A stretch of 32,233 bases of DNA, from the NCBI GenBank assembly GCA_031290815.1, contig JAISLO010000139.1, positions 1-32,233 of the forward strand, in the 5' to 3' direction. Shown here piece by piece: positions 3,512 through 24,840 of this stretch. The notes beneath the pieces were generated by a model. The model was given only the letters and a program-made list of their open reading frames with translations, did no database searches and was not told the origin of the DNA. How positions within the stretch are numbered: position 1 is the first letter of the stretch; each line of letters opens with the position of its first letter. The translations under genes were made by a program, and so were the position numbers. The DNA comes from Synergistaceae bacterium. GTDB taxonomy: Bacteria; Synergistota; Synergistia; Synergistales; Synergistaceae.

Positions 3512-3526
3512 TGTCTGGCCCCCCCT

Positions 3527-4393: not shown

Positions 4394-4413
4394 TTAAGGC
4401 AGCAAAACAGCGG

Positions 4414-6018: not shown

Positions 6019-6031
6019 CGCAGCCGCCTCC

Positions 6032-6706: not shown

Positions 6707-6729
6707 CTTTTTAAGCGCCCTCTCTTCCC

Positions 6730-7572
6730 TCAATACTCGTCAGGCAGTTCTTCCATCGTGTCACAGCGGAACACAGGGCCGTCCTTGCAGACGTACTTGG
6801 AACCTATGTTGCACCTTCCGCATTTCCCGATGCCGCACTTCATCCGAAGCTCAAACGTGGTATAAACCTGGCTCTTGTCGAAGCCCAATGTTTGAAGCGC
6901 GGCCAGGACGAACTTGATCATGATGGGCGGTCCGCAGATGAGCGCCGTCTTCGTGGTCGGAAATTTAAGTTCCTTGACATAGTCCGGCACGAAGCCAACA
7001 TGCCCGTTCCACCCCTCCTGCTGGCGATCTATTGTGAGATGTACGTTCACATTGTCATGGCCTATCCACTCGTTGCGGATCTCGTCGATGTCGACGAGAT
7101 CGTCCGTGGACCGCGCTCCATAGACGATATCGACCAGGCCGTACCTGTCCCTGTAGTGCCTCACGTAATTTATCACCGAGCGCAGCGGCGCGAGTCCGAT
7201 TCCCCCCGCGATGAAAAGCAAGTCCTTGCCCCTGAGTTCGGTATCGACGGGAAACGCGTTCCCGTACGGACCTCTGACTGTCACCTGCTGCCCGACATCC
7301 ATCTGATGCAGCCACTCGGTGAGGTAGCCCGCCCTCTTTATGCTGAACTCCATGAACTCCGTATTCGTCGGCGACGAGGTGATGGAGAACATGGCCTCGC
7401 CAATGCCGGGGATGGAGACCATGGCGCACTGTCCCGGCATATGAGGGAAGATCACCCCTCCGCTCGGGGCTTCGACGCGAAACGTCTTCACGTCCGGAGT
7501 GTCGGTCCTGATGTTCTTCACGATCCCCAGCTGCGGGATCAACATATCGGCTATTCCGGCTGAATTAGACAC
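6730..7572 (-). CDS. flxA: FAD/NAD(P)H-binding electron transfer subunit, FlxA-like (hydrogenase gamma/AsrB/PyrK-like)
   Basis: 280 aa ferredoxin-reductase fold: RTDTPDVKTFRVEAP, GPYGNAFPVD, LLFIAGGIGLAPLRSVI, ALICGPPIMIKF; C-terminal CGIGKCGRCNIG 2Fe-2S motif. Confidence 0.82.
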   Translation of the reverse strand: MSNSAGIADMLIPQLGIVKNIRTDTPDVKTFRVEAPSGGVIFPHMPGQCAMVSIPGIGEAMFSITSSPTNTEFMEFSIKRAGYLTEWLHQMDVGQQVTVRGPYGNAFPVDTELRGKDLLFIAGGIGLAPLRSVINYVRHYRDRYGLVDIVYGARSTDDLVDIDEIRNEWIGHDNVNVHLTIDRQQEGWNGHVGFVPDYVKELKFPTTKTALICGPPIMIKFVLAALQTLGFDKSQVYTTFELRMKCGIGKCGRCNIGSKYVCKDGPVFRCDTMEELPDEY

Positions 7573-8605
7573 TGACGCTCACCCCCAATGCCCTTATCAC
7601 CTTTGCTATGTTCATTGAAATCGGACACTTCGCCACGCACCTTCCGCAGCCAACGCAGGAGTATACTCCGTCGTTGTTGGCCGGGTAGTATATGAGCTTA
7701 TGCATGAATCGCTGTCTGAATCGTTCCATCTGGCTCTTTCGGCTGTTGCCGTGAGCCATGAGGGTAAAGTCAGAGTACATGCAGGAGTCCCAGCACCTGA
7801 ACCGCTGTATCCCGTGCCCGGTGTCGAAATCCTGAATGTCGTAACACTGACACGTCGGGCAGACGTATGTGCAGGTCCCGCAGCCGACGCACGCCTGACT
7901 CAGTTCCTTCCAGAGCGGCGAGTTGAACTTTTCGAGAAGAGCGCTTTCTTCAAAGCCGTCGAGACTCAGGTCGCCAAGCGGCAGCATGCTCAAAATTTCC
8001 CTCGAACGCTCGTCCTGTTTTTTGATTATCTCCAAATCCTGCCCAGTCGCCTGAACGAGGAGGTCCTTCACGGATTCTCCGAGTGCCTTGCCCTTCTCGG
8101 TCTTGCCGTCCCAATACAGATTGTCGCCTATTATGCGGATTGTCACGTCGCCCTGCGGTTCCGCGGCGTCGATGCCGAATACGCCGCAGAAACACGTCTC
8201 CTCGGGCTCGGCGCAGGCCATCGAGACGATAACACCGTTCTCCCTGCGAGCTTTGTAGAACGAATCAACCGGGTCGCAGAGGAATACCTTGTCCAGGATA
8301 TCCAGGCTGCGGGCGTCGCATCCGCGCACTCCGAACACGACAAACGGCTCGTTTTGATCACGGTTTTCGATGATCGAGATGTCCTTGCCCTGCCTCTTGA
8401 ACGCGACGATGTTCTCCGTCTGCGGAAAGAAGAAATCCTTGGCGGATTTCACGGTCTTGAGCTGATCAAGGCGAACGACCGCATCCGGCGTCCATTGGCC
8501 GAAATTTACCTGCCCGTTGTTGTCAATTGGCAGATAGAGCGTCCTGCTCGACGCTAGCTTCTGGAACAATTCGCCTATTTTATCCTTGGAAAGTTTCAGC
8601 ATCAT
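7565..8605 (-). CDS. flxB: 4Fe-4S dicluster protein, FlxB-like (AsrA/HydB-type)
   Basis: CVGCGTCTYVCPTCQCYDIQD and CVGCGRCVAKCPISMNIAKV motifs; start ATG 8605 after AGGAGG; stop/start overlaps on both sides. Confidence 0.75.
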   Translation of the reverse strand: MMLKLSKDKIGELFQKLASSRTLYLPIDNNGQVNFGQWTPDAVVRLDQLKTVKSAKDFFFPQTENIVAFKRQGKDISIIENRDQNEPFVVFGVRGCDARSLDILDKVFLCDPVDSFYKARRENGVIVSMACAEPEETCFCGVFGIDAAEPQGDVTIRIIGDNLYWDGKTEKGKALGESVKDLLVQATGQDLEIIKKQDERSREILSMLPLGDLSLDGFEESALLEKFNSPLWKELSQACVGCGTCTYVCPTCQCYDIQDFDTGHGIQRFRCWDSCMYSDFTLMAHGNSRKSQMERFRQRFMHKLIYYPANNDGVYSCVGCGRCVAKCPISMNIAKVIRALGVSVSV

Positions 8606-9588
8606 CAAGCTCCTCCTCTCTCATACACAACGCTTGGCTCAACGTCGCCAGTTTTGTACTCGGTCAGAGGAGATTTGCCTTCCACATCCGCGCCGGCCTG
8701 ATATTCGCCGTAAAAGGCGTTGATGTCCTTGATGAACTTGCGGTTTAAGAGGTGAAGAGGTATGTTCTGCGGGCAGACCCTGCTGCATTCCCCGCAGTCG
8801 GTACAGCGTCCCGCGACGTGGAAAGCCCGTATTATGTGGAACATGTTTTCCTCGAAACTGTCCGCGTTGGACTTGGCCTGAACTCCGGATCTCGGGTTGT
8901 CGAACACGCATTTGAGACACGAACAGACCGGACACGCGTTGCGGCAAGCGTTACAGCGAATACACCTCGACAGCTCCCCTCTCCAGAACGCGAACCGCTC
9001 GTCAGGGGTCATGCCCTCCAACTCGCCGACCTTCGCAAATCGATCGAGGGTATCCCATTGCCAGGGATCGTCAACCACCGCTAACTCGTCGTACACCTTG
9101 TGCTCACTGCCCTTGCAGGACAGGCACTTCTCCAGAAGGATGTCCCTCCTGGCAAGTGTCTTGTCGCCGTAGAGCGTGTGCGCGACCAGATCGTCGCCGT
9201 TCTCATCTAGCGATTTGATGCCCTTTACGCCAAGCGTCCTCAGCTTTTCGATGTCCAGCATTCCGTCGCATCCGACGCCTATCACGTAAGTGTTCTCCCT
9301 GTTTACCTTGTGCTCCCTCAAGAGGTGATTGAAGCTGTAGGTGTCGCAGGGCTTGAGGAAGACCAGAATCCGGCCCTCCTTCTTTGTGGCGTCTATGAGG
9401 TACTTGCTGAGCATGGCGGCGGAAAACCCGTTGTAAACTAGTCCGTCGAGAGATTCCTCGGTCTCGAAGACGGCGGGGTTGGGATCATAGTAAAATTCGC
9501 CGTTCTTCCAGCCCAGCACCCTGTTTACGGTTCCCTCACGCAATAATTCGCCCGCTCTGCTACGCATCATATCTCTGATTCTACGCAT
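8605..9588 (-). CDS. flxC: 4Fe-4S dicluster/FrhB-FdhB-like subunit, FlxC-like
   Basis: VFLKPCDTYSFNHLL, CIRCNACRNACPVCSCLKCVF, CTDCGECSRVCPQNIPLHLL; start MRRIRDMMRS rather than the longer upstream ORF. Confidence 0.72.
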   Translation of the reverse strand: MRRIRDMMRSRAGELLREGTVNRVLGWKNGEFYYDPNPAVFETEESLDGLVYNGFSAAMLSKYLIDATKKEGRILVFLKPCDTYSFNHLLREHKVNRENTYVIGVGCDGMLDIEKLRTLGVKGIKSLDENGDDLVAHTLYGDKTLARRDILLEKCLSCKGSEHKVYDELAVVDDPWQWDTLDRFAKVGELEGMTPDERFAFWRGELSRCIRCNACRNACPVCSCLKCVFDNPRSGVQAKSNADSFEENMFHIIRAFHVAGRCTDCGECSRVCPQNIPLHLLNRKFIKDINAFYGEYQAGADVEGKSPLTEYKTGDVEPSVVYERGGA

Positions 9589-10022
9589 CGGATATCCTCC
9601 AGCCTCTTGCACTCTCCCAACGCGCTGATTGTCTCCGCGAATTGATTCATCGTGTTGGCAAACTTCGCGCCCTCCGCTGCGGAAACCCACTCTACCCTCG
9701 TGCGCCCCTTCTCTATGCCGAGAAAGTCAAGCATACTGAAGAGAAGGGCGGTTCTTCTGCGGGCGAAGTAGTTGCCCGAGGTGTAGTGGCAGTCTCCGGG
9801 GTGGCAGCCGCACATAATCACTCCATCCGCGCCCCTCTGAAAGGCTCGCAGGATAAAGAGCGGATTGACGCGGCATGAGCACGGCACGCGAATGACCTTG
9901 ACGTTGACCGGATAATTCAGCCGGCTAGATCCCGCGAGATCCGCGCCAGCGTAGCTGCGCCAGTTGCAGCAGAAGGCCACTATCAAGGGATTGAATGCGC
10001 CGCCTTTCTCGTTTATCGGCAT
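9567..10022 (-). CDS. flxD: MvhD/FlxD-like 2Fe-2S electron transfer subunit
   Basis: VAFCCNWRSYAGADLAGSSRLNYPVNVKVIRVPCSCRVNPLFILRAFQRGADGVIMCGCHPGDCHYTSGNYFARRR is an MvhD signature; start ATG 10022 overlaps the hdrA stop. Confidence 0.85.
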   Translation of the reverse strand: MPINEKGGAFNPLIVAFCCNWRSYAGADLAGSSRLNYPVNVKVIRVPCSCRVNPLFILRAFQRGADGVIMCGCHPGDCHYTSGNYFARRRTALLFSMLDFLGIEKGRTRVEWVSAAEGAKFANTMNQFAETISALGECKRLEDIRCVESEI

Positions 10023-12007
10023 ATCGCGTCCACCTCCGCCATGATTTGCAGGTTTGTAAATCCTTTGAGGTCCATCGCTCCGGACGGGCATGTTACGGTG
10101 CAGGCGCCGCAGCCCTGACAGACCGCCTCGTTGACGCATGCCACCCTGCGCGTCTCCCTGACCCCGTGATCGATGACCATCTTATCCTCATAGGTGATCG
10201 CGCCGTAGGGACATACGAGCTCGCAGGAAGAGCAGCCGTTGCAGAGCGGCTCGCTGCAGCCCGCCACGCACGGGTTGCCCATCAGCTTGTCCTTCGACAG
10301 CAGCCCTATCACCTTCGATGCCGCAGCCCCGGCTTGCGCCACAGTGTCCGGAATGTCCTTGGGCCCCTGGCACAGGCCGGAGAGGAATATTCCGGCGGTC
10401 GGGCTCTCGACAGGACGCAGCTTGGGGTGCGCCTCCGTGAAGAAGTCGTTGGTATCCATGCTCGCCGTAAACATCGTGCCCAGACTTCGCGCCGTCGGAT
10501 CCGGCTCTATCGCTGCCGCCAGGACGACCATGTCGGCCTTGATCACGACCTGTTTATCGGCGATCAGGTCCGATCCCTGCACGATCAGATGCCCGTCCTC
10601 CTCGGCGACCTTGCCGACCATGCCCTTTATGTAGTGAACTCCGTACTCCTCGACGGCCCTGCGATAGAACTCGTCGAAGCTCTTGCCGGGTGTGCGGACG
10701 TCTATGTAGAACACATAGGCCTCCGTGTCGGGATACTTCTCCCGCAGCAGCATGGCGTGCTTCGCCGTGTACATGCAGCAGATCTTCGAACAGTACGTCT
10801 TGCCGCAGTCGACGGTGGCGCGCGAACCAACGCACTGCACGAAGACGACCGTCTTCGGCGGTTCGTGGTCGGACGGCCTGAGCACCTTGCCCTTCGTGGG
10901 TCCGGCGGCGTTGCATATGCGCTCGAACTCGAGCGACGTTATGACGTCGGGACACTGGGCGTACTGAAACTCGTCGTACCTCTCCATCGAGATGGGCTTG
11001 AAGCCAGTCGCCAACACGACGGCGCCGTACTGTTTCGTGATTATCTCGTCTTCCTGGTCGTAATCGATGGCCTTGGCGGTGCAAACCTTCTCGCATATTC
11101 CGCACTTGCCGGTCTTGAACTTGATGCAGGCATCCCTGTCGATTACAGGCACGTTGGGTATGGCCTGGGCGAACGGAATGTAAATGGCGCTGCGATTGCA
11201 GAGCCCCTGGTTGAACTCGCTCTTCGCGCTCTTCGACGGGCACTTTTCAACGCATACGCCGCAGCCCGTACACAGATCGGAGTTGACCGCGCGCGCGCGT
11301 TTTCTGATGTTTACGGTAAAGTTGCCGACGAACCCCGAAACGCTCTCGACTTCGCTGTATGTATACAAATTGATCTTCTCGTGAGCCGAAGCGTCCACCA
11401 TCTTCGGTGTGAGAATGCACGCCGCGCAGTCCAGCGTGGGGAACGTCTTGTCGAGCATCGCCATCTTGCCGCCTATGGTGGGGGTCTTCTCGACTATGTC
11501 GACCTCGTATCCAGCGTCCGCCACGTCGAGCGCGGTCTGAATGCCGGCGATCCCTCCGCCTATTACCAGAGCCCTCTTTATGACCGGGCTCTCGCCGGCA
11601 AAGAGCGGCACGTTGCGGTTCAGTTTGGCGACGGCCGCCCTTGCCAGAATTATCGCCTTTTCGGTACCCTCGCTCTTTTCTTTGTGAATCCATGAACACT
11701 GTTCGCGTATGTTGGCAATCTCGACCATGTACGGATTCAATCCGGCAACCGCCGCAGCCTTGCGGAAGGTGGCCTCGTGCATCCTAGGTGAACACGCGCA
11801 GACTACGATACCGGTCAACCCATGTTCTGCGATAGCGTTTCTGATCGCGGACTGTCCGCCCTCAGAGCACATATACTGGTAGTTTGTGGAGAACACGACG
11901 TTCGGCTCGGTCTTTACCGCCTCCGCGACGGCTTCGACATCGACCGTTGCCGCTATGTTGCTCCCGCACCAGCAGATAAACACGCCAATTTTTTGCAATA
12001 AACTCAC
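10013..12007 (-). CDS. hdrA: heterodisulfide reductase subunit A-like (HdrA, FAD and multiple 4Fe-4S)
   Basis: 664 aa; ALVIGGGIAGIQTALDVADAGYEVDIVEK, TLDCAACILTPKM, CTGCGVCVEKCPSK, C-terminal CNGCSSCELVCP and CQGCGACTVTCPSGA. Confidence 0.93.
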   Translation of the reverse strand: MSLLQKIGVFICWCGSNIAATVDVEAVAEAVKTEPNVVFSTNYQYMCSEGGQSAIRNAIAEHGLTGIVVCACSPRMHEATFRKAAAVAGLNPYMVEIANIREQCSWIHKEKSEGTEKAIILARAAVAKLNRNVPLFAGESPVIKRALVIGGGIAGIQTALDVADAGYEVDIVEKTPTIGGKMAMLDKTFPTLDCAACILTPKMVDASAHEKINLYTYSEVESVSGFVGNFTVNIRKRARAVNSDLCTGCGVCVEKCPSKSAKSEFNQGLCNRSAIYIPFAQAIPNVPVIDRDACIKFKTGKCGICEKVCTAKAIDYDQEDEIITKQYGAVVLATGFKPISMERYDEFQYAQCPDVITSLEFERICNAAGPTKGKVLRPSDHEPPKTVVFVQCVGSRATVDCGKTYCSKICCMYTAKHAMLLREKYPDTEAYVFYIDVRTPGKSFDEFYRRAVEEYGVHYIKGMVGKVAEEDGHLIVQGSDLIADKQVVIKADMVVLAAAIEPDPTARSLGTMFTASMDTNDFFTEAHPKLRPVESPTAGIFLSGLCQGPKDIPDTVAQAGAAASKVIGLLSKDKLMGNPCVAGCSEPLCNGCSSCELVCPYGAITYEDKMVIDHGVRETRRVACVNEAVCQGCGACTVTCPSGAMDLKGFTNLQIMAEVDAICR

Positions 12008-12040
12008 TTCCTCATATCGGTTTGTTTCGATCCTCTGAGT

Positions 12041-12439
12041 CTACTTGCTGTACTTTCTGAAGGCGCTTACGATTAACTGTTGGGGTATACTCTCGTCCAG
12101 CAGGGCCGGAATCGCCTCCGGCCTCAGCCTGTTGCCTCCCTGCGGACGGACTACCTCCATCCTTACGGCCTCGATCAGGTGCGCCGGTTCCACGCCCCTG
12201 GGACAACGTTCGACGCACGCGAAACAGGACAGGCATCTCCACAGCGATTTGGATTGCAAGAGCGCCGCGATGTCGCCTTCCTCCACCATGGAGACGAAAC
12301 GGTGCGGGCGGATGTCCATCTCCGCGAAGTTGGGACACGTCGCCGAACACTTTCCGCACTTCATGCACTTCCTGACGTTCACTCCGCTGGTGCGGATTAT
12401 GATCTCCGTCAGCCTCTTCTCGTCAGCATGCATGCACAA
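12041..12439 (-). CDS. hdrC: heterodisulfide reductase subunit C-like (HdrC)
   Basis: 132 aa; CMKCGKCSATCP and CLSCFACVERCPRGV; overlaps the end of hdrB. Confidence 0.9.
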   Translation of the reverse strand: MCMHADEKRLTEIIIRTSGVNVRKCMKCGKCSATCPNFAEMDIRPHRFVSMVEEGDIAALLQSKSLWRCLSCFACVERCPRGVEPAHLIEAVRMEVVRPQGGNRLRPEAIPALLDESIPQQLIVSAFRKYSK

Positions 12440-13232
12440 GCCCTCCCTCGCGCGCCTTCACGCCAAGCGCCTCCGCCAGGAGCTCAGTGAAATAAACCAC
12501 TGGGATCTCTCCGGTTCCATTCTCATTCAGGTTGTAAAGACAGAGCGGACACGCGGTGACGATCGTGTCGGCGCCGCGCCGCGCGGCCGAACTCATCACC
12601 TTTTTTGACATCTCGCGCGATATATTCTTTGCCTCGATTGAAACGTACCCGCCGCAGCACTCGTTGCGGTACGGATACCTAACGGGCAGCGCGCCGATGG
12701 AGGATATGAAATCCTCTATGATCGACGGATTTTCGGGATTGTCGAACTTCATCACGCCGCTCGGGCGCAGCAGCATACATCCGTAGTAGGCCGCGATCTT
12801 CCTGTCCTTCAGCGGATTGGTCACCCGCTCTTTGATCTTGTCAAATCCGACGGCGTCCCGCAGCATCTCTAGATAATGGACCACCGTGGTCTCTCCCGAG
12901 TACGGGGATTCGAGCTCCAGATAGTCGTTTACCTTCGCGCGCATGTCCGCGTCGGTCTGCATATCGTTGTTGACCCGTTTTATGACGTGATGACATGCCG
13001 AGCACAGCGTCAAAAGCTGCTGATTGCTCTGTTTGGCGCTGTCGAGCGCCCTCACTGCCGACAGCCTGGTCGCGAGCTCATCCCTTGCCAAAGGATAGAC
13101 CGCCCCGCAACACTGCCATTCCGGCAGTTCTTCCATGACGACTCCGAGCGCCTCCGCCGCTGCTCTTGCAGCCCAGTCGAGCTCGGAGGCTCTTGTTTTA
13201 AGCGTGCATCCTGGATAGTAACTGAACTTCAT
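12423..13232 (-). CDS. hdrB: heterodisulfide reductase subunit B-like (HdrB, two CCG domains)
   Basis: MKFSYYPGC...WQCCGA...CSACHH and YGC...NECCGGY...CPLC: two intact CCG motifs. Alternative GTG start at 13250. Confidence 0.92.
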   Translation of the reverse strand: MKFSYYPGCTLKTRASELDWAARAAAEALGVVMEELPEWQCCGAVYPLARDELATRLSAVRALDSAKQSNQQLLTLCSACHHVIKRVNNDMQTDADMRAKVNDYLELESPYSGETTVVHYLEMLRDAVGFDKIKERVTNPLKDRKIAAYYGCMLLRPSGVMKFDNPENPSIIEDFISSIGALPVRYPYRNECCGGYVSIEAKNISREMSKKVMSSAARRGADTIVTACPLCLYNLNENGTGEIPVVYFTELLAEALGVKAREGGLVHAC

Positions 13233-13410
13233 AACTTCTTCTCCAATCACGTTTAGTATTGGAATGACACCTCCCTCTCCTCGAGTAAAGGAGCGTTCTT
13301 CCCTTTTGCCTCCGCTGCCTTCAAATGTGTTCTAAGTTGCGCCGCGCCACAAACTCACACACACCTCCTCGCCGTCTCGTCAAATTGCGAAGGAATTGCC
13401 TGTCCTCCGC

Positions 13411-14352
13411 CTATATACCCTCAAAGAAGGGCTTGATCGCCTCGGCGCTCTTATGGAGCGCAGCTTCTTCATCGGGGGCGAGTTTTGGCAGCAGTCCGCC
13501 GGAGATTCCCTTCGCTCCCACCGCGAACGGGAGGCTCACGCATACTCCGCTGATCCCGTACTGGCCGTCGAGCACTTTGCCCACCGGCAGTATCTTGTTC
13601 GTGTCGTTCAGGATGTTCTTGCATATCTCGCAGACGGACAGCGCTATGGCGAAGAACGTTGCCCTCTTGTTCTTTATGACCCTGGCCCCTGCCTCTCGGA
13701 CGTCCGTGAGAACCTCGTCCTTCCAGTTCGGGTTCTTCTCGCCGGCGAACTGCTCGACGTATGTTGCCGCGTTCACGCCAAAGATGGATGACAGCGACCA
13801 CGGGATGAACGACGTGTCCCCGTGTTCGCCCAGAACGTACGCGTCTATGTTGGCGCAGCTTACACCGATCCGCTTGGACAGGATCGCGCGCAGGCGGGAC
13901 GTATCGAGCAGCGTCCCAGAGCCCACAACCCTGCCGGCCGGCAGGCCCGAGAGCTTCGTGACGGCGTATGTGAGTATGTCCACTGGGTTGCTCACCACGA
14001 CGTAGACGGCGTCGGGCGCGTTCTTGACTATCGGGGGCACGACGTCCTCTTTGAAGAGGGCGACGTTGGTATTTACGAGGTCGATGCGGGTCATCCCGGG
14101 CTGACGCGGCTTGCCCAGAGTGAAGACGACGATGTCCGAACCGGCCGCGTCGTCATAATCGCCCGCGTAAATCTTGAACGGTGCGACGAACGGGGCTCCC
14201 TGAATGATATCGTCCGCCTCTCCTATCGCCTTCTCCTTGAAGATGTCCACCAGGACTATCTCCGAGGCGACTCCCTGAACGGCGAGCGCGTACGCTGTGG
14301 TGGCGCCCACGTTTCCAGCGCCGAGAATGGTGATCTTTCTGCCCTTTGCCAT
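13411..14352 (-). CDS. mdh: malate dehydrogenase of the lactate/malate dehydrogenase superfamily (LDH-like MDH)
   Basis: 313 aa; ILGAGNVGATTAYAL, EIVLVDI (NAD-type acidic residue), KPRQPGMTRIDLV places Arg where LDHs have Gln102, VVSNPVDILTYAV, GEHGDTSF. Confidence 0.85.
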   Translation of the reverse strand: MAKGRKITILGAGNVGATTAYALAVQGVASEIVLVDIFKEKAIGEADDIIQGAPFVAPFKIYAGDYDDAAGSDIVVFTLGKPRQPGMTRIDLVNTNVALFKEDVVPPIVKNAPDAVYVVVSNPVDILTYAVTKLSGLPAGRVVGSGTLLDTSRLRAILSKRIGVSCANIDAYVLGEHGDTSFIPWSLSSIFGVNAATYVEQFAGEKNPNWKDEVLTDVREAGARVIKNKRATFFAIALSVCEICKNILNDTNKILPVGKVLDGQYGISGVCVSLPFAVGAKGISGGLLPKLAPDEEAALHKSAEAIKPFFEGI

Positions 14353-14644
14353 TAAAATTCCTCCTCAGTACAATTCAAACGCATGATCGAAGCGCTTGTT
14401 CCAGACATCTGCGGAGAGCGTCAGATTTGACGTCTCCGACAACACCGTTGATTCCTCACAACCCTTTCTTTATGACTAGCTGAAGACTTGACACATAATA
14501 ACAGACTGCGGCGCAATTATCCAACGCAACGCACGGTATTTGAAATTTCTAGAAAGAGCTGATTCTCAAATAAAATAATGTCCCTTATCATAGATTGTTA
14601 TAAGTTTAACTAATCTTTCCTCAGGGAAGAAATGTTTTTTTGGA

Positions 14645-14668
14645 ATATCGATATATCTATATCGATAT
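14645..14668. promoter_or_regulatory. paired box ATATCGATAT-ATCT-ATATCGATAT, candidate LysR-family binding site
   Basis: Two identical 10-bp palindromes at 14-bp spacing, in the divergent mdh/lysR intergenic region. Confidence 0.65.
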
Positions 14669-14684
14669 AGCAATCTCATTATGA

Positions 14685-14714
14685 TTGACCAAATCGCTTG
14701 TGAAAAGATATACT
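14685..14714 (+). promoter_or_regulatory. sigma70-like promoter of the lysR gene
   Basis: TTGACC (14685-14690), 18-bp spacer, TATACT (14709-14714). Confidence 0.6.
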
Positions 14715-14833
14715 AAAGGTGTCTCACATATAACAGTAAGTTATGCTATCCGCAAGAGTACGGGCGTTCGCGGCGCTCAATTCAGTTCGTCTGCTGCGTG
14801 TCGTTGTTGAGGAATCGAGGAAGGTGGTACGTC

Positions 14834-15745
14834 TTGAACACGATGCATCTCAAGTACGCGGTCGAGGTAGAAAAAACCGGCTCCATAACAAAGGCTGCAA
14901 AACGGCTGTACATCAACCAACCCAACCTGAGCAAGACGATACGGGAACTCGAGGAGACCCTGGGGTTCATGATCTTCAAGCGAACCCCCAAGGGCATCGT
15001 GCCAACTAAAAAGGGCACGGAGTTTCTGGCGTGCGCGAAGAGCATTCTGTTTCAGATCGGCCGCATGGAGAACATGGCCGAGGGATCGCCCAGGACATAT
15101 CTGAACATATCGGCGCCGAGGGCTAGTTATATCTCCTGCGCGCTGGCCGAATTCATAGGCGGCCTCCCCGAGGACAGGGTCGTGGATATCGACTACAGGG
15201 AGACCAGCTCCCTCCAGGCGATAGAAAACGTCTCCGACGGAGAGAGCGACATCGGCATAATCCGCTGCAGGGGAGAGGACGAGCGGTACTTCCTGGAGTT
15301 GTTCCGAGAGAGAAACCTGCACTACGAACTGGTCAATCACTTCGAATATCTGGTCCTGCTTTCCGAAAGGCACGAACTGGCCGCCTGCGACGTGATATGC
15401 TGCCGTGATCTTGAAAGATATATAGAGATCACTCACGGGGACGCTAACTCGCCGTCGAAACGAATCCAGTGCGGCAGCAGGATCGGCGGAAGGATATCTG
15501 TTTACGAGAGGGGAAGCCGGCTCGAACTGCTGGACAAGATCCCCAGGGCCTATATGTGGACATCACCCGTGCCAACGAGCGTAACGAAAACGTTCTCCCT
15601 GGTTCAGCGCAGGAGCGACATGCCGTATAATAATCACAACAAGGATTTCCTCGTGTACAGGAGCGACTACAGATTCATCGACGAGGACAACTTCTTCGTC
15701 GAAAAGCTGCTCGAGACGGCGGAGATCACGTCATCGATAGTTTAG
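14834..15745 (+). CDS. LysR family transcriptional regulator
   Basis: MHLKYAVEVEKTGSITKAAKRLYINQPNLSKTIRELEETLGFMIFKRTPKGIVPTKKG LTTR helix-turn-helix. TTG 14834 behind AAGGTGGT preferred; ATG 14843 also possible. Confidence 0.92.
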   Translation: MNTMHLKYAVEVEKTGSITKAAKRLYINQPNLSKTIRELEETLGFMIFKRTPKGIVPTKKGTEFLACAKSILFQIGRMENMAEGSPRTYLNISAPRASYISCALAEFIGGLPEDRVVDIDYRETSSLQAIENVSDGESDIGIIRCRGEDERYFLELFRERNLHYELVNHFEYLVLLSERHELAACDVICCRDLERYIEITHGDANSPSKRIQCGSRIGGRISVYERGSRLELLDKIPRAYMWTSPVPTSVTKTFSLVQRRSDMPYNNHNKDFLVYRSDYRFIDEDNFFVEKLLETAEITSSIV

Positions 15746-15776
15746 GGAGGGTTTGGTGCGAGACATCAATATGGAC

Positions 15777-15800
15777 ATATCGATATATAAATATCGACAT
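15777..15800. promoter_or_regulatory. second paired box ATATCGATAT-ATAA-ATATCGACAT, candidate LysR-family binding site
   Basis: 21/24 identical to 14645-14668 with the same 14-bp phasing; upstream of the pyruvate:ferredoxin oxidoreductase gene. Confidence 0.65.
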
Positions 15801-15842
15801 TCTAATTTTATACCTGTTCATCTATGTATATTTATCCTAGCA

Positions 15843-15848
15843 TATAAT
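15843..15848 (+). promoter_or_regulatory. candidate -10 element for the PFOR operon
   Basis: Perfect TATAAT with no good -35 element, about 55 bp downstream of the paired-box centre. Confidence 0.4.
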
Positions 15849-16099
15849 TAGCACGTTTCCGTAATATGCATCGTGTGAGGTGTGCGGCTTATATTCGCCG
15901 TTTCTACCGAATATCTTTCCTGAAAAACAGAGTTATAATCCTTGCGGATTACGCAAAAATGCGGAAAACGCACTGAGGAGGGGAATCGAACACTGCAACC
16001 CCGCGGCTGGACAGCCGCATGTCACGGAGCATGGGGAAGGAGCTTTGGCCGGCGTCACATGGCATATCAAAGCACAGTATTAAGGGAGGTATAGACATT

Positions 16100-19000
16100 A
16101 TGTCATCGCGGTCCAACGTAACTCTCGACGGCAACGAAGCAGCGGCTTACGTTGCCCACGCAACAAACGAGGTAATTTCCATATATCCGATAACCCCATC
16201 GTCGAACATGGGCGAGTGGGCCGATCAGTGGAGCTCGGAGGAGCGGCCAAACATCTGGGGGACGGTTCCAAGCGTCGTCGAGATGCAGAGCGAGGCGGGA
16301 GCGGCAGGGGCTTATCACGGCGCGCTGCAGAGCGGGGCCCTCGGGACGACGTTCACAGCGTCCCAGGGACTGCTTCTCATGATACCAAACATGTTCAAGA
16401 TCGCCGGCGAGCTGACCAGCACCGTAATGCACGTCTCGGCCCGCACCGTGGCGACCCACGCGCTCTCGATATTCGGCGATCACTCGGACGTCATGGCGAC
16501 GCGCTCCACCGGCTGGGCGATGCTCTGCTCGAGCTCGGTGCAGGAGGTAATGGACATGGCGCTCATATCGCAGATGGCGACGCTCGAGGGCCGGGTTCCG
16601 ATCCTTCACTTCTTCGACGGATTCCGCACCAGCCATGAGGTCATGAAGGTCGAGCAGATAACATACGACGACATGAAGGCCCTGATCGACAACGATCTCG
16701 TTCACAAACACCGCGCGCGCAGGCTCACCCCGGACAGCCCCGAGCTCAGGGGATCGGCGCAGAATCCGGACACGTTCTTCCAGTCCCGCGAGGCTTGCTC
16801 CCCATACTTCGACAGGATGCCCGGCATAGTTCAGAGGGCGATGGACCGTTTCGCCGAGAGGGTTGGCCGCAAATATCACCTGTTCGACTATTTCGGAGCG
16901 CCGGATGCCGAGCGCGTCATCGTGATAATGGGAAGCGGGGGCTACGTCGCCCGCGAGGCGGCGGATCACCTGTCCGCTAAAGGCGAGAAGGTCGGGCTGC
17001 TGCTGATTCGGCTCTACCGGCCATTCGACGTCGAAGCGTTCAAAAAAGCTCTGCCCAAAACCGTGCGCAGCATAGCCGTGCTCGACCGCTGCAAAGACCC
17101 GGCGGCCCCAGGCGAGCCCCTTTATATGGATGTAGTAGAGGCCTTGTCTGACAGGCACGACATCACCATCGTCGGAGGGCGTTACGGCCTGTCGTCCAAG
17201 GACTTCACCCCGGCCATGGTAAAGGCCGTCTACGACGAACTTGGCCGCGGCGAGCCGAAGAACGGGTTCACGGTCGGAATCGACGACGATGTCGCGCACA
17301 GCAGCCTGAAGTTCGATCCAGGCTTCTCCACCGAGGACGCGAAGTGCGTGCGCTGTCTCTTCTACGGGCTCGGCGCGGATGGAACGGTCGGGGCAAACAA
17401 AAATTCCATCAAGATAATAGGAGAGGACACCGACTTCCACGCCCAGGGCTATTTCGAATACGACTCCAAGAAATCCGGAGGAATCACCACCAGCCATCTT
17501 CGCTTCGGCCCCAACCCCATATACGCGTCATACTTCATAAGCAGGGCAAACTTCGTCGCATGTCACCAGTTCTCCTTCCTCGAACGCTACGACATGCTGA
17601 GGAACGCGGTGGACGGCGCGACGTTCCTCCTGAACAGCCCCTATGACAAGGGTGAAGTGTGGAACAGGCTGCCGCTCAAGGTTCAAAAACAGATAATCGC
17701 CAAGAAGATAAAACTGTACACGATAGACGCCATCAAGATAGCGAAGGAGACGGGCATGGGCGGGCGCATCAACACCATCATGCAGACGTGCTTCTTCGCG
17801 ATAAGCGGCGTCCTGCCCAAAGATGTGGCGATAGACGCCATAAAGAAGTCCATCAAGAAGACATACAGCCGCAAGGGCGACGAGGTCGTGAAGCAGAACG
17901 TGAGCGCCGTGGACTCTACGCTGGCCAATCTCTTCGAGGTCGCCATTCCAAGCGCGGCGTCGAGCTCGTTCGACGTCAGGGACGCCGTGGCGTCAGACTC
18001 CCCTGAATTTGTCCGCACTGTGCTGGCCCCGATGATGATAAACGAAGGCGACTCCCTGAAGGTCTCGCACATGCCGGTGGACGGCAGTTACCCGACCGGC
18101 ACCACTCAGTACGAGAAGCGCAACGTTGCTATAGACATCCCCGTTTGGGACCCGTCGGTCTGCATCCAGTGCGGCAAGTGCGCTCTCGTCTGTCCGCACG
18201 CCACAATACGGGCCAAGGTGTACGACGCGGCGATCCTGAACAGCGCGCCGGCAACGTTCAAGTCCGTCAACGCGAACTGGAAGAACTTCGCCGGTAAGAA
18301 GTACACGGTTCAGGTGGCGCCTGAGGACTGCATAGGATGCGGGCTCTGCGTCCAGAACTGTCCTGCTAAGAACAAGCAGTCCGAGGGAAAGAAGGCCATC
18401 AACATGGCCCCGCAGCTTGACCTGCGCGAGACTGAGCGCGCCAACTGGGAGTTCTTCATGGGGATACCGGACGTCGACCGCAACGAGCTCAACCACTCAT
18501 CGGTCAAGGACGTTCAGCTCCTGCACCCGCTGTTCGAGTTCTCCGGCGCGTGCGGCGGATGCGGCGAGACCCCGTATCTCAAGCTCTTGTCGTCCCTGTT
18601 CGGCGACAGGGCCCTCATCGCAAACGCGACCGGATGCAGCTCCATATACGGAGGCAACCTGCCGACCACGCCGTGGACGAACAACAGCGAAGGGCGAGGC
18701 CCGGCATGGTCGAACTCGCTGTTCGAGGACTGCGCGGAGTTCGGACTCGGATTCCGCCTCACTCTCGACAAACACCTCGAGTTCGCCTCTGAGCTCTTGA
18801 AAAAACTATCGGGCGAGGTGGGGACCGACCTGGCGGAACAGATCCTGAACGCGAGCCAGGCGACCGAGAAAGAAATACTGGAACAGCGAAAGAGGGTGAG
18901 CATCCTCAAGGAAAAGTTGAGCAAACTGAGCAGTCCCGAAGCCGTCGAGCTCGCGACCGTTGCCGACACGCTCACCAAAAAGTGCGTATGGGCGATAGGC

Positions 19001-19636
19001 GGCGACGGATGGGCATACGATATCGGCTACGGAGGGCTGGACCACGTGCTGGCGTCCGGCCGCAACATCAATGTCCTCGTGCTCGACACCGAGGTCTACT
19101 CCAACACCGGCGGCCAGATGTCGAAATCCACCCCGCGCGGCGCCATTGCGAAGTTCGCGGCGGCCGGCAAGAGACAGGGCAAGAAGGATCTGGCGCTGAT
19201 GGCCATGGCCTACGGTACGGTGTACGTCGGGCGGGTCGCGATGGGCGCGAACGACGCTCACACGGTGAAGACCTTCCTGGAGGCGGAAGCCTACGAGGGC
19301 ACGTCGATAATCATAGCCTACAGCCACTGCATAGCCCACGGCATAGAGATGCACAAGGGCCTCGAACAGCAGAAAAAAGCCGTCGATTCAGGACACTGGA
19401 TCCTCATGCGGTACAATCCGGCTCTGGCGCTCGAAGGAAAGAATCCGCTCACAATAGACAGCAAGGCTCCGACGATTCCTCTCTCGGATTACATTTACGA
19501 GGAGGTCCGATACAAGGCGCTCCAGATGTCGAGGCCCAAGGAGGCGGCTCTGCTCCTGGCCGAGGAGGAGCGGGACCTGAGGGCGAAGTGGCGTTATTAT
19601 CAGCACCTCGCAGCTATGGATTACTCAGAAAAGTAG
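16100..19636 (+). CDS. nifJ: pyruvate:ferredoxin (flavodoxin) oxidoreductase
   Basis: 1178 aa from ATG 16100 behind AAGGGAGGT; GNEAAAYVAHATNEVISIYPITPSS, CIQCGKCALVCPH, CIGCGLCVQNCPAK, GGCGETPYLKLLSSLFGDR, NIN VLVLDTEVYSNTGGQMSKSTP. Confidence 0.96.
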   Translation: MSSRSNVTLDGNEAAAYVAHATNEVISIYPITPSSNMGEWADQWSSEERPNIWGTVPSVVEMQSEAGAAGAYHGALQSGALGTTFTASQGLLLMIPNMFKIAGELTSTVMHVSARTVATHALSIFGDHSDVMATRSTGWAMLCSSSVQEVMDMALISQMATLEGRVPILHFFDGFRTSHEVMKVEQITYDDMKALIDNDLVHKHRARRLTPDSPELRGSAQNPDTFFQSREACSPYFDRMPGIVQRAMDRFAERVGRKYHLFDYFGAPDAERVIVIMGSGGYVAREAADHLSAKGEKVGLLLIRLYRPFDVEAFKKALPKTVRSIAVLDRCKDPAAPGEPLYMDVVEALSDRHDITIVGGRYGLSSKDFTPAMVKAVYDELGRGEPKNGFTVGIDDDVAHSSLKFDPGFSTEDAKCVRCLFYGLGADGTVGANKNSIKIIGEDTDFHAQGYFEYDSKKSGGITTSHLRFGPNPIYASYFISRANFVACHQFSFLERYDMLRNAVDGATFLLNSPYDKGEVWNRLPLKVQKQIIAKKIKLYTIDAIKIAKETGMGGRINTIMQTCFFAISGVLPKDVAIDAIKKSIKKTYSRKGDEVVKQNVSAVDSTLANLFEVAIPSAASSSFDVRDAVASDSPEFVRTVLAPMMINEGDSLKVSHMPVDGSYPTGTTQYEKRNVAIDIPVWDPSVCIQCGKCALVCPHATIRAKVYDAAILNSAPATFKSVNANWKNFAGKKYTVQVAPEDCIGCGLCVQNCPAKNKQSEGKKAINMAPQLDLRETERANWEFFMGIPDVDRNELNHSSVKDVQLLHPLFEFSGACGGCGETPYLKLLSSLFGDRALIANATGCSSIYGGNLPTTPWTNNSEGRGPAWSNSLFEDCAEFGLGFRLTLDKHLEFASELLKKLSGEVGTDLAEQILNASQATEKEILEQRKRVSILKEKLSKLSSPEAVELATVADTLTKKCVWAIGGDGWAYDIGYGGLDHVLASGRNINVLVLDTEVYSNTGGQMSKSTPRGAIAKFAAAGKRQGKKDLALMAMAYGTVYVGRVAMGANDAHTVKTFLEAEAYEGTSIIIAYSHCIAHGIEMHKGLEQQKKAVDSGHWILMRYNPALALEGKNPLTIDSKAPTIPLSDYIYEEVRYKALQMSRPKEAALLLAEEERDLRAKWRYYQHLAAMDYSEK

Positions 19637-19642
19637 TATTAT

Positions 19643-19683
19643 TTATCCGCCGCCGGCAGACGCTTCGACCCGGCGGCGGATAA
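19643..19683 (+). other. strong RNA hairpin between the PFOR and carboxyltransferase genes (no U-tract)
   Basis: 14-bp perfect stem TTATCCGCCGCCGG/CCGGCGGCGGATAA, 13-nt loop; following bases TTGATATCC. Confidence 0.65.
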
Positions 19684-19716
19684 TTGATATCCGCAAAATA
19701 AATTTTACTTAGGGAA

Positions 19717-21231
19717 GTGACCGAATCAATTATGGAAGAGAAGGCGCAGAAATCAACCAACACAGGCAAGACGAGAGGCCCCGAGGAAAAACGCGCTGAA
19801 CCTCAGGCTGCATCAGCGCCCAGCGGCGCGGAGACGAAAAAGAGGAAGATCGGCATAACCGAGACTGGGTTCAGAGACGCCCACCAGTCGATAATGGCGA
19901 CGCGCCTGCGCACATCTGACATGCTTCCGATATGCGAGGCCATTGACGAGGTCGGCTACCATTCAATCGAGATGTGGGGAGGGGCGACGTTTGACTCGGC
20001 AATGAGATTTCTCGACGAGGATCCATGGGAGCGCCTCCGCGAGATAAGAAAGCGGGTCAAGAAGACCAAACTCCAGATGCTCCTGCGCGGACAGAACCTC
20101 CTTGGCTACCGCCACTATGCAGACGACGTGGTCCGCGAGTTCGTAAAGCGCATGATCGGCAACGGCATCGACATAGTCAGGATTTTCGACGCGCTGAACG
20201 ATCTGAGAAACACCGAGATAGCGGCGGATCAGGTGAAACGCGAGGGCGGTCATCTTCAGCTGGCCATATCGTACACGATCTCGCCCGTTCACACGCTCGA
20301 CCTATTCGCCAAACAGGCCAGGGACATGGCGGACATGGGCGCCGATTCGATATGCATCAAGGACATGGCCGGACTGCTCACTCCGGTAGCGGCGCACTCC
20401 CTCGTAAAGGCGATAAAGGAGAAGGTCGATCTGCCGGTGCAGCTTCACAGCCACTACACTACCGGCCTGGCGGCGATGGCGTATCTGGACGGGCTCGAGG
20501 CGGGGGCTGACGTCTGCGACTGCGCCATATCCCCATTTGCTATGGGGACAAGCCAGCCCGCTACCGAGACTATAGTCGCGGCGCTCGCCAACGGCCCGCT
20601 CGACACCGGGTTGTCCTTGGAAAAGCTGCTTCCCGTGGCGAACCACTTCGAAACGCTCAAGAAGAAGTACAGCAGCATAATAATGGGAGTGTCGGGAGTC
20701 GATATAAACATACTGCTGTATCAAATACCGGGCGGCATGTACTCCAACCTCCAGAGCCAGCTCAAGGAGGGCAACGCCCTTCACAAGCTGAAGGATGTGC
20801 TGGAGGAGGTTCCCCGCGTCCGCAAGGAGATGGGATATCCCCCGCTCGTTACGCCGACAAGCCAGATCGTCGGAACACAGGCCGCGATGAACGTATTGGT
20901 GGGCGAGCGATGGAAGGTGATACCCAAGGAGGTCAGGCAGTATTTATTGGGCCATTACGGCCGCACGCCGGCGCCGGTGGACCCCGAGATACAAAAGAAG
21001 GCGACAGAGGGCGAGGAACCCATCACATGCAGGCCGGGCGAGAAGATAAAGGCAGAGATGGACAAACTTCGCGAGGAGGCCAGCAGTTGGTGCCTGCAGC
21101 CCGAGGATGTCCTCTCCTATGCCATGTTCCCGCAGGTTGCCGCCGAGTTCCTCAAGAAAAAATTCGCCAGGGTGACAATGGTGAACGTCGGATTGGACAG
21201 CCCTATAGAGGATGGATCATATCCTGTTTAA
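19717..21231 (+). CDS. transcarboxylase 5S-type/oxaloacetate decarboxylase alpha-like carboxyltransferase, no biotinyl domain
   Basis: GITETGFRDAHQSIMATRLRTSDML, MWGGATFDSAMRFLDEDPWERLR, LLRGQNLLGYRHYADDVV, ADSICIKDMAGLL, LHSHYTTG, PGGMYSNLQSQL, PPLVTPTSQIVGTQA; ends ...SPIEDGSYPV without an AMKM motif. Start GTG 19717 or ATG 19732. Confidence 0.9.
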   Translation: MTESIMEEKAQKSTNTGKTRGPEEKRAEPQAASAPSGAETKKRKIGITETGFRDAHQSIMATRLRTSDMLPICEAIDEVGYHSIEMWGGATFDSAMRFLDEDPWERLREIRKRVKKTKLQMLLRGQNLLGYRHYADDVVREFVKRMIGNGIDIVRIFDALNDLRNTEIAADQVKREGGHLQLAISYTISPVHTLDLFAKQARDMADMGADSICIKDMAGLLTPVAAHSLVKAIKEKVDLPVQLHSHYTTGLAAMAYLDGLEAGADVCDCAISPFAMGTSQPATETIVAALANGPLDTGLSLEKLLPVANHFETLKKKYSSIIMGVSGVDINILLYQIPGGMYSNLQSQLKEGNALHKLKDVLEEVPRVRKEMGYPPLVTPTSQIVGTQAAMNVLVGERWKVIPKEVRQYLLGHYGRTPAPVDPEIQKKATEGEEPITCRPGEKIKAEMDKLREEASSWCLQPEDVLSYAMFPQVAAEFLKKKFARVTMVNVGLDSPIEDGSYPV

Positions 21232-21301
21232 CCTAAAACGCGGGGAATGGTATAAAATGAGATAAGGTGCAAGTAACTACTAAAATAAGGAGTTGGTTGC
21301 G

Positions 21302-22801
21302 GTGAGTGATATCAAGGAACTCATTGGGGACAAAAAACTGCATGGCAAGATAACATCGGCCGAGGAAGCGGCGCGCATCATCAAAAAGGATATGACACTG
21401 GGATGCAGCGGATTTACTCCGTCGGGGTACCCAAAGGTCGTTCCTACGGCTCTCGCGAAGAGGGCGGAGGCTGAGGGACCGATACCGGTTGGAATATGGA
21501 CTGGCGCGTCGACCGGGCCGGAGCTTGACGGTGTGCTCGCCAGCACCGGGTGCATAAAAAAAAGATTCCCCTACCAGACTAACGATGCCATACGCAAGGG
21601 GATCAACGAGGGTGACATCCAGTTCGCGGATGTCCATCTCTCTCACTGCGCCCAGAACATCAGGTACGGTTTCTACGGAAAGATCGACGTCGCCATCATA
21701 GAGGCCATCCGCATCACCCCTGAGGGCGGCATAATCCCGACGTCATCGGTCGGAAACTCCAACGCGTTCGTAGAGGTCGCGGACAAGGTGATCGTCGAGA
21801 TAAACACCGTCCAGCCGCAGGGGCTCGACGGCATTCACGACATATACTCGCCGGAGAACCCCCCGCACAGAAAACCGATTCCGATAACCAACGTTCACGA
21901 CAGGATAGGCACGACCTATATCCCGTGCGACCCGGCGAAGATCGTAGCGATAGTGGCCTCCGACGTCAAGGATTCTCAGAGACCTCTGGCCCCGGCCGAC
22001 GAGATAAGCAGCAAGATGGCGGCCAACCTCATAGACTTCCTCAGCGTCGAGGCAAACGCCGGCAAATTGCCAAAGGGGCTCCTTCCGCTCCAGTCCGGCG
22101 TGGGCAATATCGCCAACGCAGTGCTGGAGGGGCTGGTCGCGTGGCCGACAGACGGCCTTACGGTCTACACCGAGGTCATCCAGGACTCCGTCTTCGAGCT
22201 GCTGGACACGGGCAAGATCGCGTTTGCGTCGAGCACGGCGCTGACACCCAGCCCGGACGGCGCGGCGAAGTATTATCCGCGCATCAACGAGTTCAAGGAT
22301 CGCATTGTCCTGCGCCCGCAGGAGATAAGCAACAATCCAGAAGTCATCAGGCGTCTCGGGCTGATAGCCATGAACACGGCTGTGGAGGTCGACATATACG
22401 GACACGTTAATTCGACGATGGCCGGCGGAACGAGAATGCTGAACGGCATAGGCGGTTCCGGGGACTTCGCGAGGAACGCGTATCTGACCGTGTTCCTGTG
22501 CCCGTCGACATCGGGTGGCGGAAAGATATCCAAGGTCGTTCCGTTCTGCTCCCACGTGGATCACACCGAGCACGACGTGGACCTGATAGTGACCGAGTAT
22601 GGCGTAGCCGACCTGCGCGGGCTCTCCCCCAGGGAGAGGTCCCGCGAGATAATCGAACGCTGCGCTCACCCAGATTATAAAGAGCCTCTCCGCGACTACA
22701 AGCGCCGCGCGGAGGAGGGCAAGGGACACGAGCCTCACCTGCTTGGCGAGGCCTTTTCATGGCACGAGAGGCTGAGAACCAACGGCACGATGAAGAAGTA
22801 A
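21302..22801 (+). CDS. acetyl-CoA hydrolase/transferase family protein, likely succinate (propionate):CoA transferase
   Basis: GHVNSTMAGGTRMLNGIGGSGDFARNAYL, VTEYGVADLRGLSPRERSREII; GTG 21302 behind AAGGAG. Confidence 0.87.
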   Translation: MSDIKELIGDKKLHGKITSAEEAARIIKKDMTLGCSGFTPSGYPKVVPTALAKRAEAEGPIPVGIWTGASTGPELDGVLASTGCIKKRFPYQTNDAIRKGINEGDIQFADVHLSHCAQNIRYGFYGKIDVAIIEAIRITPEGGIIPTSSVGNSNAFVEVADKVIVEINTVQPQGLDGIHDIYSPENPPHRKPIPITNVHDRIGTTYIPCDPAKIVAIVASDVKDSQRPLAPADEISSKMAANLIDFLSVEANAGKLPKGLLPLQSGVGNIANAVLEGLVAWPTDGLTVYTEVIQDSVFELLDTGKIAFASSTALTPSPDGAAKYYPRINEFKDRIVLRPQEISNNPEVIRRLGLIAMNTAVEVDIYGHVNSTMAGGTRMLNGIGGSGDFARNAYLTVFLCPSTSGGGKISKVVPFCSHVDHTEHDVDLIVTEYGVADLRGLSPRERSREIIERCAHPDYKEPLRDYKRRAEEGKGHEPHLLGEAFSWHERLRTNGTMKK

Positions 22802-22831
22802 CTCTTTTTGCATAACGAGGGGGGTATTGGA

Positions 22832-23233
22832 GTGAAGACGACTGTCATCGATCACATAGGAATCGCGGTTAACAGCATCGAGGAATCGCTCAAGTTCTGG
22901 GAGGGCACGCTCGGCGTAAAGTGCGCCGGAGTAGAGACCGTGGAGGACCAGAAGGTTAAGACGGCATTCCTCCCCATAAAGGAGTCCGAGCTGGAGCTTC
23001 TCGAGGCGACGTCGCCCGAAAGCCCGGTCGCGAAATTCATAGAGAAGAAGGGCGAGGGAATCCATCACGTCGCGATACGAGTGGACAACCTCGAGGAAGC
23101 GCTCTCCGAACTGAAGAAGAAGGGCGTAAAACTGATAGACGAGACCCCGCGCAAGGGAGCCGGCGGAGCTATGATCGCCTTCCTCCATCCAAAGGCGACA
23201 GGCGGTATTCTGCTTGAACTGAGCCAAAGATAG
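22832..23233 (+). CDS. mce: methylmalonyl-CoA epimerase
   Basis: [72 protein letters not shown]. Confidence 0.93.
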
Positions 23234-23280
23234 GAAGACCGATTTGACATTAGAGGTCTGATTAAGGAGGTTTATCTGGT

Positions 23281-24840
23281 ATGGCGGAACGCACTATCGA
23301 ACAACTCTGCGGCAATCTGCTCGCAAAACGGGAGAAGGCATCGCAGGGCGGCGGGGAAAAAGCTATCGCCAAGCAGCACGAGAAGGGCAAGCTGACCGCC
23401 AGGGAGAGAATAGCCAAAATCCTCGACCCGGGCAGTTTTGTGGAGTTGGATGAGTTGGTGGAACATCGCTGCTCAAATTTTGGCATGGAGAAGACCGTGT
23501 TCGAGGGCGACGGGGTCGTCACGGGCTATGGGACCGTCGACGGCCGCATAGTGTACGTGTTCAGCCAGGACTTCACCGTCATAGGCGGCTCGCTCGGAGA
23601 GGCTCATGCGAAGAAGATCTGCAAGGTCCTGGACCTCGCCGTTCAGAACGGCGCTCCGTGCGTCGGCATCAACGACTCCGGCGGCGCTCGCATACAAGAA
23701 GCGGTCGACGCCCTGTCTGGGTATGGCAACATATTCTTTCGCAACGTAAAGGCCTCGGGCGTAGTCCCTCAGCTCTCCGTCATCGCCGGCCCGTGCGCCG
23801 GAGGAGCGGTCTACAGCCCGGCCCTGACCGACTTTGTTTACATGGTTGACAAGGTCGGCATCATGCACATAACGGGCCCGCAGGTGATAAAGGCCGTTAC
23901 GGGCGAGGACGTCACGTCGGAGCAGATCGGCGGAGCCACAGCACACAACAGGACATCCGGCGTCGCCCATTTCTTCGCGAAGGACGAGGCGGAGTGTTAC
24001 GACCAGGTTCGCAAGACACTCTCGTTCCTGCCTAGCAACAATCTGGAGGAGCCTCCCTTCAAGGAGACCGGTGACGATCCGGCGAGGGCCGACCTCTCTC
24101 TGCGCGAGGTGGTGCCGACCAATCCGAATAAGGCGTACGACGTGCGCGACGTCATAAAAAAGGTGGTTGACGACGCCGATTTCTTCGAGGTCCAGCCGAT
24201 GTTCGCCATGAACATAGTCACAGGTTTCGCGAGGGTCGGAGGCCGCGTGATAGGGATCATAGCCAACCAGGCAAGGGTCATGGCCGGCTGTCTCGACATC
24301 GACGCTTCATGCAAAGCGGCGCGCCATATCAGAATCTGCGACTCCTTCAACATTCCCATAATCACCTTCGAGGACGTGCCCGGCTATCTCCCCGGCCTCA
24401 ATCAGGAGATGGGCGGCATCATAAAGCACGGCGCGAAACTGCTGTACGCGTACAGCGAGGCGACATCCCCCAAGATAACCGTCGTGCTGCGCAAGGCGTA
24501 CGGCGGGTCCTATCTCGGAATGTGCAGCAAGGACCTCGGCGCGGACGTGGTCCTCGCGTGGCCGCAGGCCGAGATCGCCGTTATGGGAGCCGAGGGCGCC
24601 GCGAACATCATATTCCGCAAGGAGATAGACGCCGCGAGCGACAAGGCGGCGACAAGGGCCGAGAAGATCGAGGAATACCGCAATGCCTTCGCCAACCCGT
24701 ACGTGGCCGCGGCCCGAGGCTTCGTCGACAGGGTCATCATGCCGGAGGAGACGAGGCTCGCCATTCATCAGGCGCTGACCATGACGGAGGACAAGAAAGA
24801 ACTCCGTCCGAAGAGAAAACACGGGGTAATGCCGGCTTAG
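23281..24840 (+). CDS. mmdA: acyl-CoA carboxyltransferase (methylmalonyl-CoA decarboxylase alpha/propionyl-CoA carboxylase beta/transcarboxylase 12S type)
   Basis: 519 aa; KLTARERIAKILDPGSFVE, FSQDFTVIGGSLGEAHAKKI, GINDSGGARIQEAVDALSGYG, SGVAHFFAKDE, ITFEDVPGYLPGLNQE, AYGGSYLGMCSKDLGAD. Confidence 0.92.
   Translation: MAERTIEQLCGNLLAKREKASQGGGEKAIAKQHEKGKLTARERIAKILDPGSFVELDELVEHRCSNFGMEKTVFEGDGVVTGYGTVDGRIVYVFSQDFTVIGGSLGEAHAKKICKVLDLAVQNGAPCVGINDSGGARIQEAVDALSGYGNIFFRNVKASGVVPQLSVIAGPCAGGAVYSPALTDFVYMVDKVGIMHITGPQVIKAVTGEDVTSEQIGGATAHNRTSGVAHFFAKDEAECYDQVRKTLSFLPSNNLEEPPFKETGDDPARADLSLREVVPTNPNKAYDVRDVIKKVVDDADFFEVQPMFAMNIVTGFARVGGRVIGIIANQARVMAGCLDIDASCKAARHIRICDSFNIPIITFEDVPGYLPGLNQEMGGIIKHGAKLLYAYSEATSPKITVVLRKAYGGSYLGMCSKDLGADVVLAWPQAEIAVMGAEGAANIIFRKEIDAASDKAATRAEKIEEYRNAFANPYVAAARGFVDRVIMPEETRLAIHQALTMTEDKKELRPKRKHGVMPA

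Follow-up and report, generated by a model that had tools for sequence, protein, structure and literature searches.

A paired palindromic box at Synergistaceae fermentation promoters as the predicted operator of a divergent Rex paralogue

Two boxes around a lysR gene

A gene for a LysR-type transcriptional regulator (LTTR) in a Synergistaceae bacterium is flanked by two copies of a paired box, and the locus raises the question of which regulator reads them. The window, as the whole stretch of DNA analysed is called here, is the 32,233-nucleotide contig JAISLO010000139.1 of assembly GCA_031290815.1 (Table 1). A first-pass annotation had described the boxes as two 24-mers identical at 21 of 24 positions, and had proposed that one regulator, LysR, autoregulates and switches both metabolic arms. 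Direct inspection confirmed both 24-mers, and the distances given from the boxes to the start codons of mdh (14352) and nifJ (16100) are likewise correct.

Table 1. Features of the lysR locus and the rexB gene of the same genome (G000). G003 is the sister species.
Feature	Position	Strand	Description
box 1	14645..14668	.	ATATCGATAT-N4-ATATCGATAT; between the divergent mdh and lysR; centred near -64 of lysR and near -61 of mdh
box 2	15777..15800	.	ATATCGATAT-N4-ATATCGACAT; 5' of nifJ; centred near -61 relative to the family-type promoter
third degenerate unit	15763..15772	.	ACATCAATAT; 14 bp 5' of, and in phase with, box 2
lysR	14834..15745	+	LTTR; HTH_1 E 1.7e-17, weak effector domain; TTG start 14834
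mdh	13411..14352	-	heads the minus-strand cluster mdh-hdr-frd-fum
nifJ	16100..19636	+	pyruvate:ferredoxin oxidoreductase (PFOR); heads nifJ-pycB-scpC-mce-mmdA
lysR -35	14685..14690	+	TTGACC; kept in G003
lysR -10	14709..14714	+	TATACT; kept in G003
predicted mdh -10	14603..14608	-	TAAACT; 36 bp from box end
nifJ copy of the -38 element	15809..15816	+	TATACCTG; consensus GTATCTWC
predicted nifJ -10	15838..15843	+	TAGCAT; 37 bp from box end, in line with the family spacing; overlaps the start of TATAAT 15843-15848
second candidate nifJ -10	15934..15939	+	TATAAT; kept in G003
rexB	G000:C275:2912-3535	-	divergent Rex paralogue on a different contig

The minus arm (2954-14352) holds mdh, Hdr-like and fumarate reductase-like genes and fumarase, and the plus arm (16100-24840) holds genes for PFOR, pycB, scpC, methylmalonyl-CoA epimerase and mmdA; the box-flanked directions carry the two arms of the succinate-propionate pathway. 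The mdh product passes the curated cut-off for L-lactate dehydrogenase (329.7 vs 303.55 bits). It contains the sequence GKPRQPGMTR, in which Arg occupies the substrate-selecting position and, by the motif rule, presumably denotes malate dehydrogenase. The product should thus be a malate dehydrogenase despite the L-lactate dehydrogenase model, which makes this an annotation trap. The lysR product has both LTTR domains, HTH_1 and a LysR substrate (effector) domain, the latter weak at 21.7 bits vs 28.

By 100 dinucleotide-preserving shuffles of the window, zero matches to the boxes are expected by chance. Scanning the genome for the motif, a check that the annotation itself had suggested, recovered the two boxes as the only loci within two mismatches of ATATCGAYAT-N4-ATRTCGATAT in the 2.32-Mb, 87.5% complete assembly, and at up to three mismatches the sole additional matches were the same two loci shifted by 14 bp. 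Phylogenetic footprinting gave a divided answer. The sister species (its contig is apparently the public JAIRWR010000062.1 of Synergistaceae bacterium isolate Gsp477_bin120) retains box 1 against a 66% identical background, and boxes stand beside LysR orthologues in other genera, whereas box 2 is degraded in the sister species, its units lying 17 bp apart instead of 14 (spacing +3). Confidence in box 2 is lower than in box 1, since it is degraded in a genome in which the second candidate nifJ -10 is kept. That one box is a recent copy of the other was ruled out, as their flanks are unrelated. Works found in a literature search for ATATCGATAT were unrelated.

The lysR promoter, TTGACC-N18-TATACT, was borne out as described, with box 1 at its noted distance, and is kept in the sister species. 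For nifJ, the annotation's placement of the box near -65 of a TATAAT promoter stands in part: TAGCAT fits the spacing seen across the family, replacing or standing besides that TATAAT. Further downstream, in the stretch 15934-15990, the second TATAAT and CCTTGCGGATTACGCAAAA are both kept in the sister species. An Rfam scan of 14300-16200 gave no match, and the nifJ leader is therefore not a known riboswitch.

A divergent Rex paralogue that accompanies the box

In a first scan of 151 related genomes the box was found in the same family and in a few members of the order, with one match in total for the reversed control. Across the class the box reads TATCGATA-N6-TATCGATA. Many boxes flank orthologues of the window LysR (44-61% identical), next to adjoining genes that vary by genus, and in several genomes the gene directly 5' of lysR is a Rex homologue (PF06971 plus PF02629). 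This gene, rexB, adjoins lysR in nine genomes; in the window's genome and the sister species it is located elsewhere.

Rex is a textbook example of a redox sensor, and its operator hardly varies. A PF06971 search splits the lineage into ordinary Rex-A (E <= 2.2e-16) and divergent Rex-B (4e-10 to 3e-15). Rex-B has the DNA-binding and NAD-binding domains of Rex, scores 275.7 bits with the curated model NF003994 (cut-off 130) and matches solved Rex proteins, the best being PDB 3wg9 (E 4e-34), which we take to be the Rex of Thermoanaerobacter ethanolicus. The sequence VRKDL in the recognition helix, with the equivalents of Arg48 and Lys49, is retained in all Rex-B proteins. The conserved Gly-rich wing is lost: GKRGVGY becomes GKPRVGF or GNPRIGF, with one inserted residue that is lacking from 3wg9 in the alignment. 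As the family models are passed despite the altered wing, Rex-B is a divergent member of the family. Asn replaces Asp191 of the NADH switch while the Tyr100 equivalent is retained, so that the response of Rex-B could differ from that of ordinary Rex.

Ordinary Rex accompanies Rex-B in many genomes of the box-bearing lineage; it was not found in the 87.5% complete assembly of the window's genome. A literature search found no paper on Rex in Synergistetes or Synergistaceae. At the position expected to hold the NADH-stacking Tyr100, the Rex-A proteins of Synergistia (L114-L120, L122, L123) carry His or Asn. In G175, the rexB match (L184 6714-7349, G175:C146) has a single TAA in frame.

Rex-B was found in 17 of the 183 genomes available for the class, and the box, at up to one mismatch, in 18: 15 of the 17 with Rex-B and three of the 166 without it. 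The exact box occurs in 12 genomes, all of them Rex-B positive. Fisher p values for this association are about 3e-17 (up to one mismatch) and 3e-15 (exact), with kinship ignored; they overstate independence because the genomes are related. A prediction set beforehand, that three newly found Rex-B genomes would carry the box, held in two (G175 and G176, exact), while the third, which has the most distant Rex-B, shows a 15-bp-phased TTTCGATA variant 5' of its lysR-rexB pair. No box at up to one mismatch was found in the Rex-B genomes G023 and G173. The box is present in 14 of 15 genomes with a LysR orthologue, and it follows Rex-B at least as closely as LysR. Rex-B and LysR co-occur so tightly that the genomes can hardly separate them, the main discriminator being G029.

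The form of the box also points to Rex. TCGATAT-N4-ATATCGA has the same even-centred 7-4-7 inverted-repeat frame as the Rex operator TTGTGAA-N4-TTCACAA. In the structure of Thermotoga maritima Rex with DNA, Arg48 reads G5 and Lys49 reads A8, whereas Arg60 and Gly61 of the wing read T4 and T3 (PMC8836258). The box retains G5 and A8, the positions read by Arg48 and Lys49, and T4 becomes C; suggestively, the changed bases would match the changed residues of the Rex-B wing. Judged by sequence, autoregulation, the target set (AdhE, hydrogenase, PFOR, MDH/LDH) and the NAD-binding domain would also be shared with known Rex systems. In contrast, the half-site letters TCGATAT are not those of the canonical ROP, and the box units are palindromic and repeated in a 14-bp phase, unlike the canonical operator. 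Further departures are the altered wing, the Asn at Asp191, the fixed -61 position at targets, and the presence of a second paralogue beside ordinary Rex. The canonical motif TTGTKAA-N4-TTMACAA is absent from the window's genome, and in relatives it does not exceed its reversed control.

Arrays of three units in 14-bp phase are frequent (L068 6260-6297, L067 4235-4272, L062 716-753 and 2403-2440, window 15763-15800). Such arrays are seen again at the adhE and rexB-hydrogenase sites, as though Rex-type dimers sat side by side on back-to-back half-sites of the palindromic units.

The genes behind the boxes encode AdhE, iron alcohol dehydrogenases (Fe-ADH), GldA (glycerol dehydrogenase), phosphoglycerate mutase, [FeFe]-hydrogenase, a flavin oxidoreductase of the old-yellow-enzyme type and thiolase, and one target cluster also includes an NfnA-like gene; in the window's genome the box targets encode PFOR and malate dehydrogenase. 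In Caldicellulosiruptor, Rex controls the hydrogenase and PFOR genes (PMC6391272), and by analogy the box targets appear to be the kinds of gene that are under Rex control elsewhere.

Promoter geometry and the roles of two regulators

In 29 target promoters (lysR excluded) the best -10 begins 36-38 bp past the box, whose centre therefore falls at -60 to -62. The annotation's placement of the box near -65 of start sites is thus general, in the form of about -61. The mean -10 score at the family spacing is 5.1 vs -0.4 +/- 0.8 in other windows (32 promoters, lysR included), a statistic that describes only the chosen set, since the promoters were selected by hand among box-bearing loci, and a few of the sites lack a clear gene assignment. 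A C follows two bases past the box in 27 of the 29, and a four-base A/T-rich tract sits between box and -10. The element GTATCTWC, which has the half-site TATC in common with the box, lies at about -38; mdh and hydrogenase promoters have CATTTC instead, and in other genera the hydrogenase promoters have a -10 that resembles that of mdh in both position and form. The combination of GTATCTNC with a spaced TATNAT does not occur elsewhere in the window. The rigid spacing from box to -10 argues for activation rather than simple blocking, and the -61 placement fits an activator-like role, unusual for a Rex repressor.

The rexB promoters are arranged differently. A box is centred on the rexB -10 in G015, G017, G029, G030, G031 and G116, for example as TTGCAT-N16-TATAAT within TATCGATA-TATAAT-TATCGATA, and in genus 16 (G067, G069, G071) the rexB promoters bear two boxes, the second lying on the -10, giving nine genomes overall. 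The rexB genes of G000, G003, G131, G175 and G176 have no box of their own. In G029 no LysR orthologue was found, yet the box is on the rexB -10; this is its only box, and as none was found at -61, the -61 boxes could depend on LysR.

LysR-type promoters have a recognition site near -65 and an activation site near -35. The layout here is similar, with boxes flanking lysR, box centres between -60 and -64 and GTATCTWC near -38, the latter a putative activation site. It is conceivable, but unlikely, that LysR itself binds the boxes (recognition at -61/-65, activation at -38), controls its own gene and switches both arms, with Rex-B a mere neighbour or bound elsewhere. The position and rigid spacing of the boxes, their presence beside LysR orthologues across genera despite differing target genes, the shared TATC and the missing -61 boxes of G029 agree with this reading. 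Against it, no T-N11-A dyad, on which the annotation had based LysR binding, is conserved (the best pair is present in 62% of 29 promoters), and the even-centred, 14-bp-phased units differ from the usual LysR dyad. Moreover, in a Clostridia MAG whose LysR (42% identical) has a similar recognition helix, no box lies near the lysR gene; the single 1-mismatch site in that genome apparently lies in a coding region, and the control also gave one match. In that MAG (L036 5995-10093), LysR is followed by NAD kinase- and NfnAB-like genes, identified by eye. LysR paralogues of 39-41% identity (G122, G123, G128, G078; second copies in G023 and G031) had no box pairs near those examined; they leave the binder undecided, because their recognition helix differs where readable. 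Of the annotation's proposal, what finds support is that the boxes are regulatory and lie about -61 to -65 from the starts of lysR, mdh and nifJ. LysR as sole binder is not supported, in view of the box's tracking of Rex-B, the rexB -10 box of LysR-less G029 and the Rex-like geometry and targets.

The boxes are, instead, probably operators of Rex-B, through which LysR-driven promoters of fermentation genes would be gated by NADH/NAD+. Conservation of the box, its co-occurrence with Rex-B, the promoter geometry and the target set are observed directly. Rex-B is predicted to form a winged-helix dimer that senses NAD(H) and whose half-site has shifted from TTGTGAA to TCGATAT with the 7-4-7 spacing kept. 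At the rexB promoter of relatives it would occupy the -10 and repress its own gene. At the lysR, mdh and nifJ promoters, the box, fixed at about -61 beside the -38 element, would control activation, and Rex-B would most likely gate activation by its partner LysR, a frequent neighbour gene. As rexB lies next to lysR in nine genomes, a two-regulator switch is favoured, with Rex-B on the box; this pairing and the activation-site-like element at -38 make LysR the natural activator, and LysR probably participates in the regulation. Fermentative, NADH-consuming genes would thereby track the NADH/NAD+ state. Binding of Rex-B, binding of LysR at -38 and -61, the sign of regulation and the response to NADH are what we infer from these sequence patterns.

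Rex-B might also act alone, as a direct class I activator at -61 (with the alpha-CTD contacting the A/T tract near -44) and a repressor at its own -10, LysR being a target only. The identical box at both positions, the fixed helical phase with an A/T tract between box and -35, and the Asn in place of Asp191 would suit such a role, which is nevertheless somewhat unlikely: a literature search found no paper tying Rex to direct activation, and this reading would account neither for the conservation of GTATCTWC nor for the pairing of rexB with lysR. It is highly improbable that a third regulator binds the boxes, with rexB and lysR merely members of its regulon, since it would have to share the pattern of occurrence of Rex-B across the 183 genomes and happen to use the operator geometry of Rex. 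A more speculative extension, which we put forward tentatively as a fair possibility, is that Rex-B and LysR share the -61 box, integrating NADH/NAD+ and the LysR effector by competition, in a module that has moved between unrelated fermentation genes of Synergistia.

Consequences for NADH control

If Rex-B does read the boxes, a differently coded Rex paralogue beside ordinary Rex would give a cell two separate NADH-controlled regulons, and the two proteins would be a natural pair for studying how specificity is determined by the Rex wing. With its fixed placement at -61, the box calls into question whether Rex sites act simply as road blocks. As the boxes bracket both fermentation arms (mdh-frd-fum and nifJ-scpC-mmdA), the switch would govern the whole succinate/propionate pathway in this uncultured lineage.
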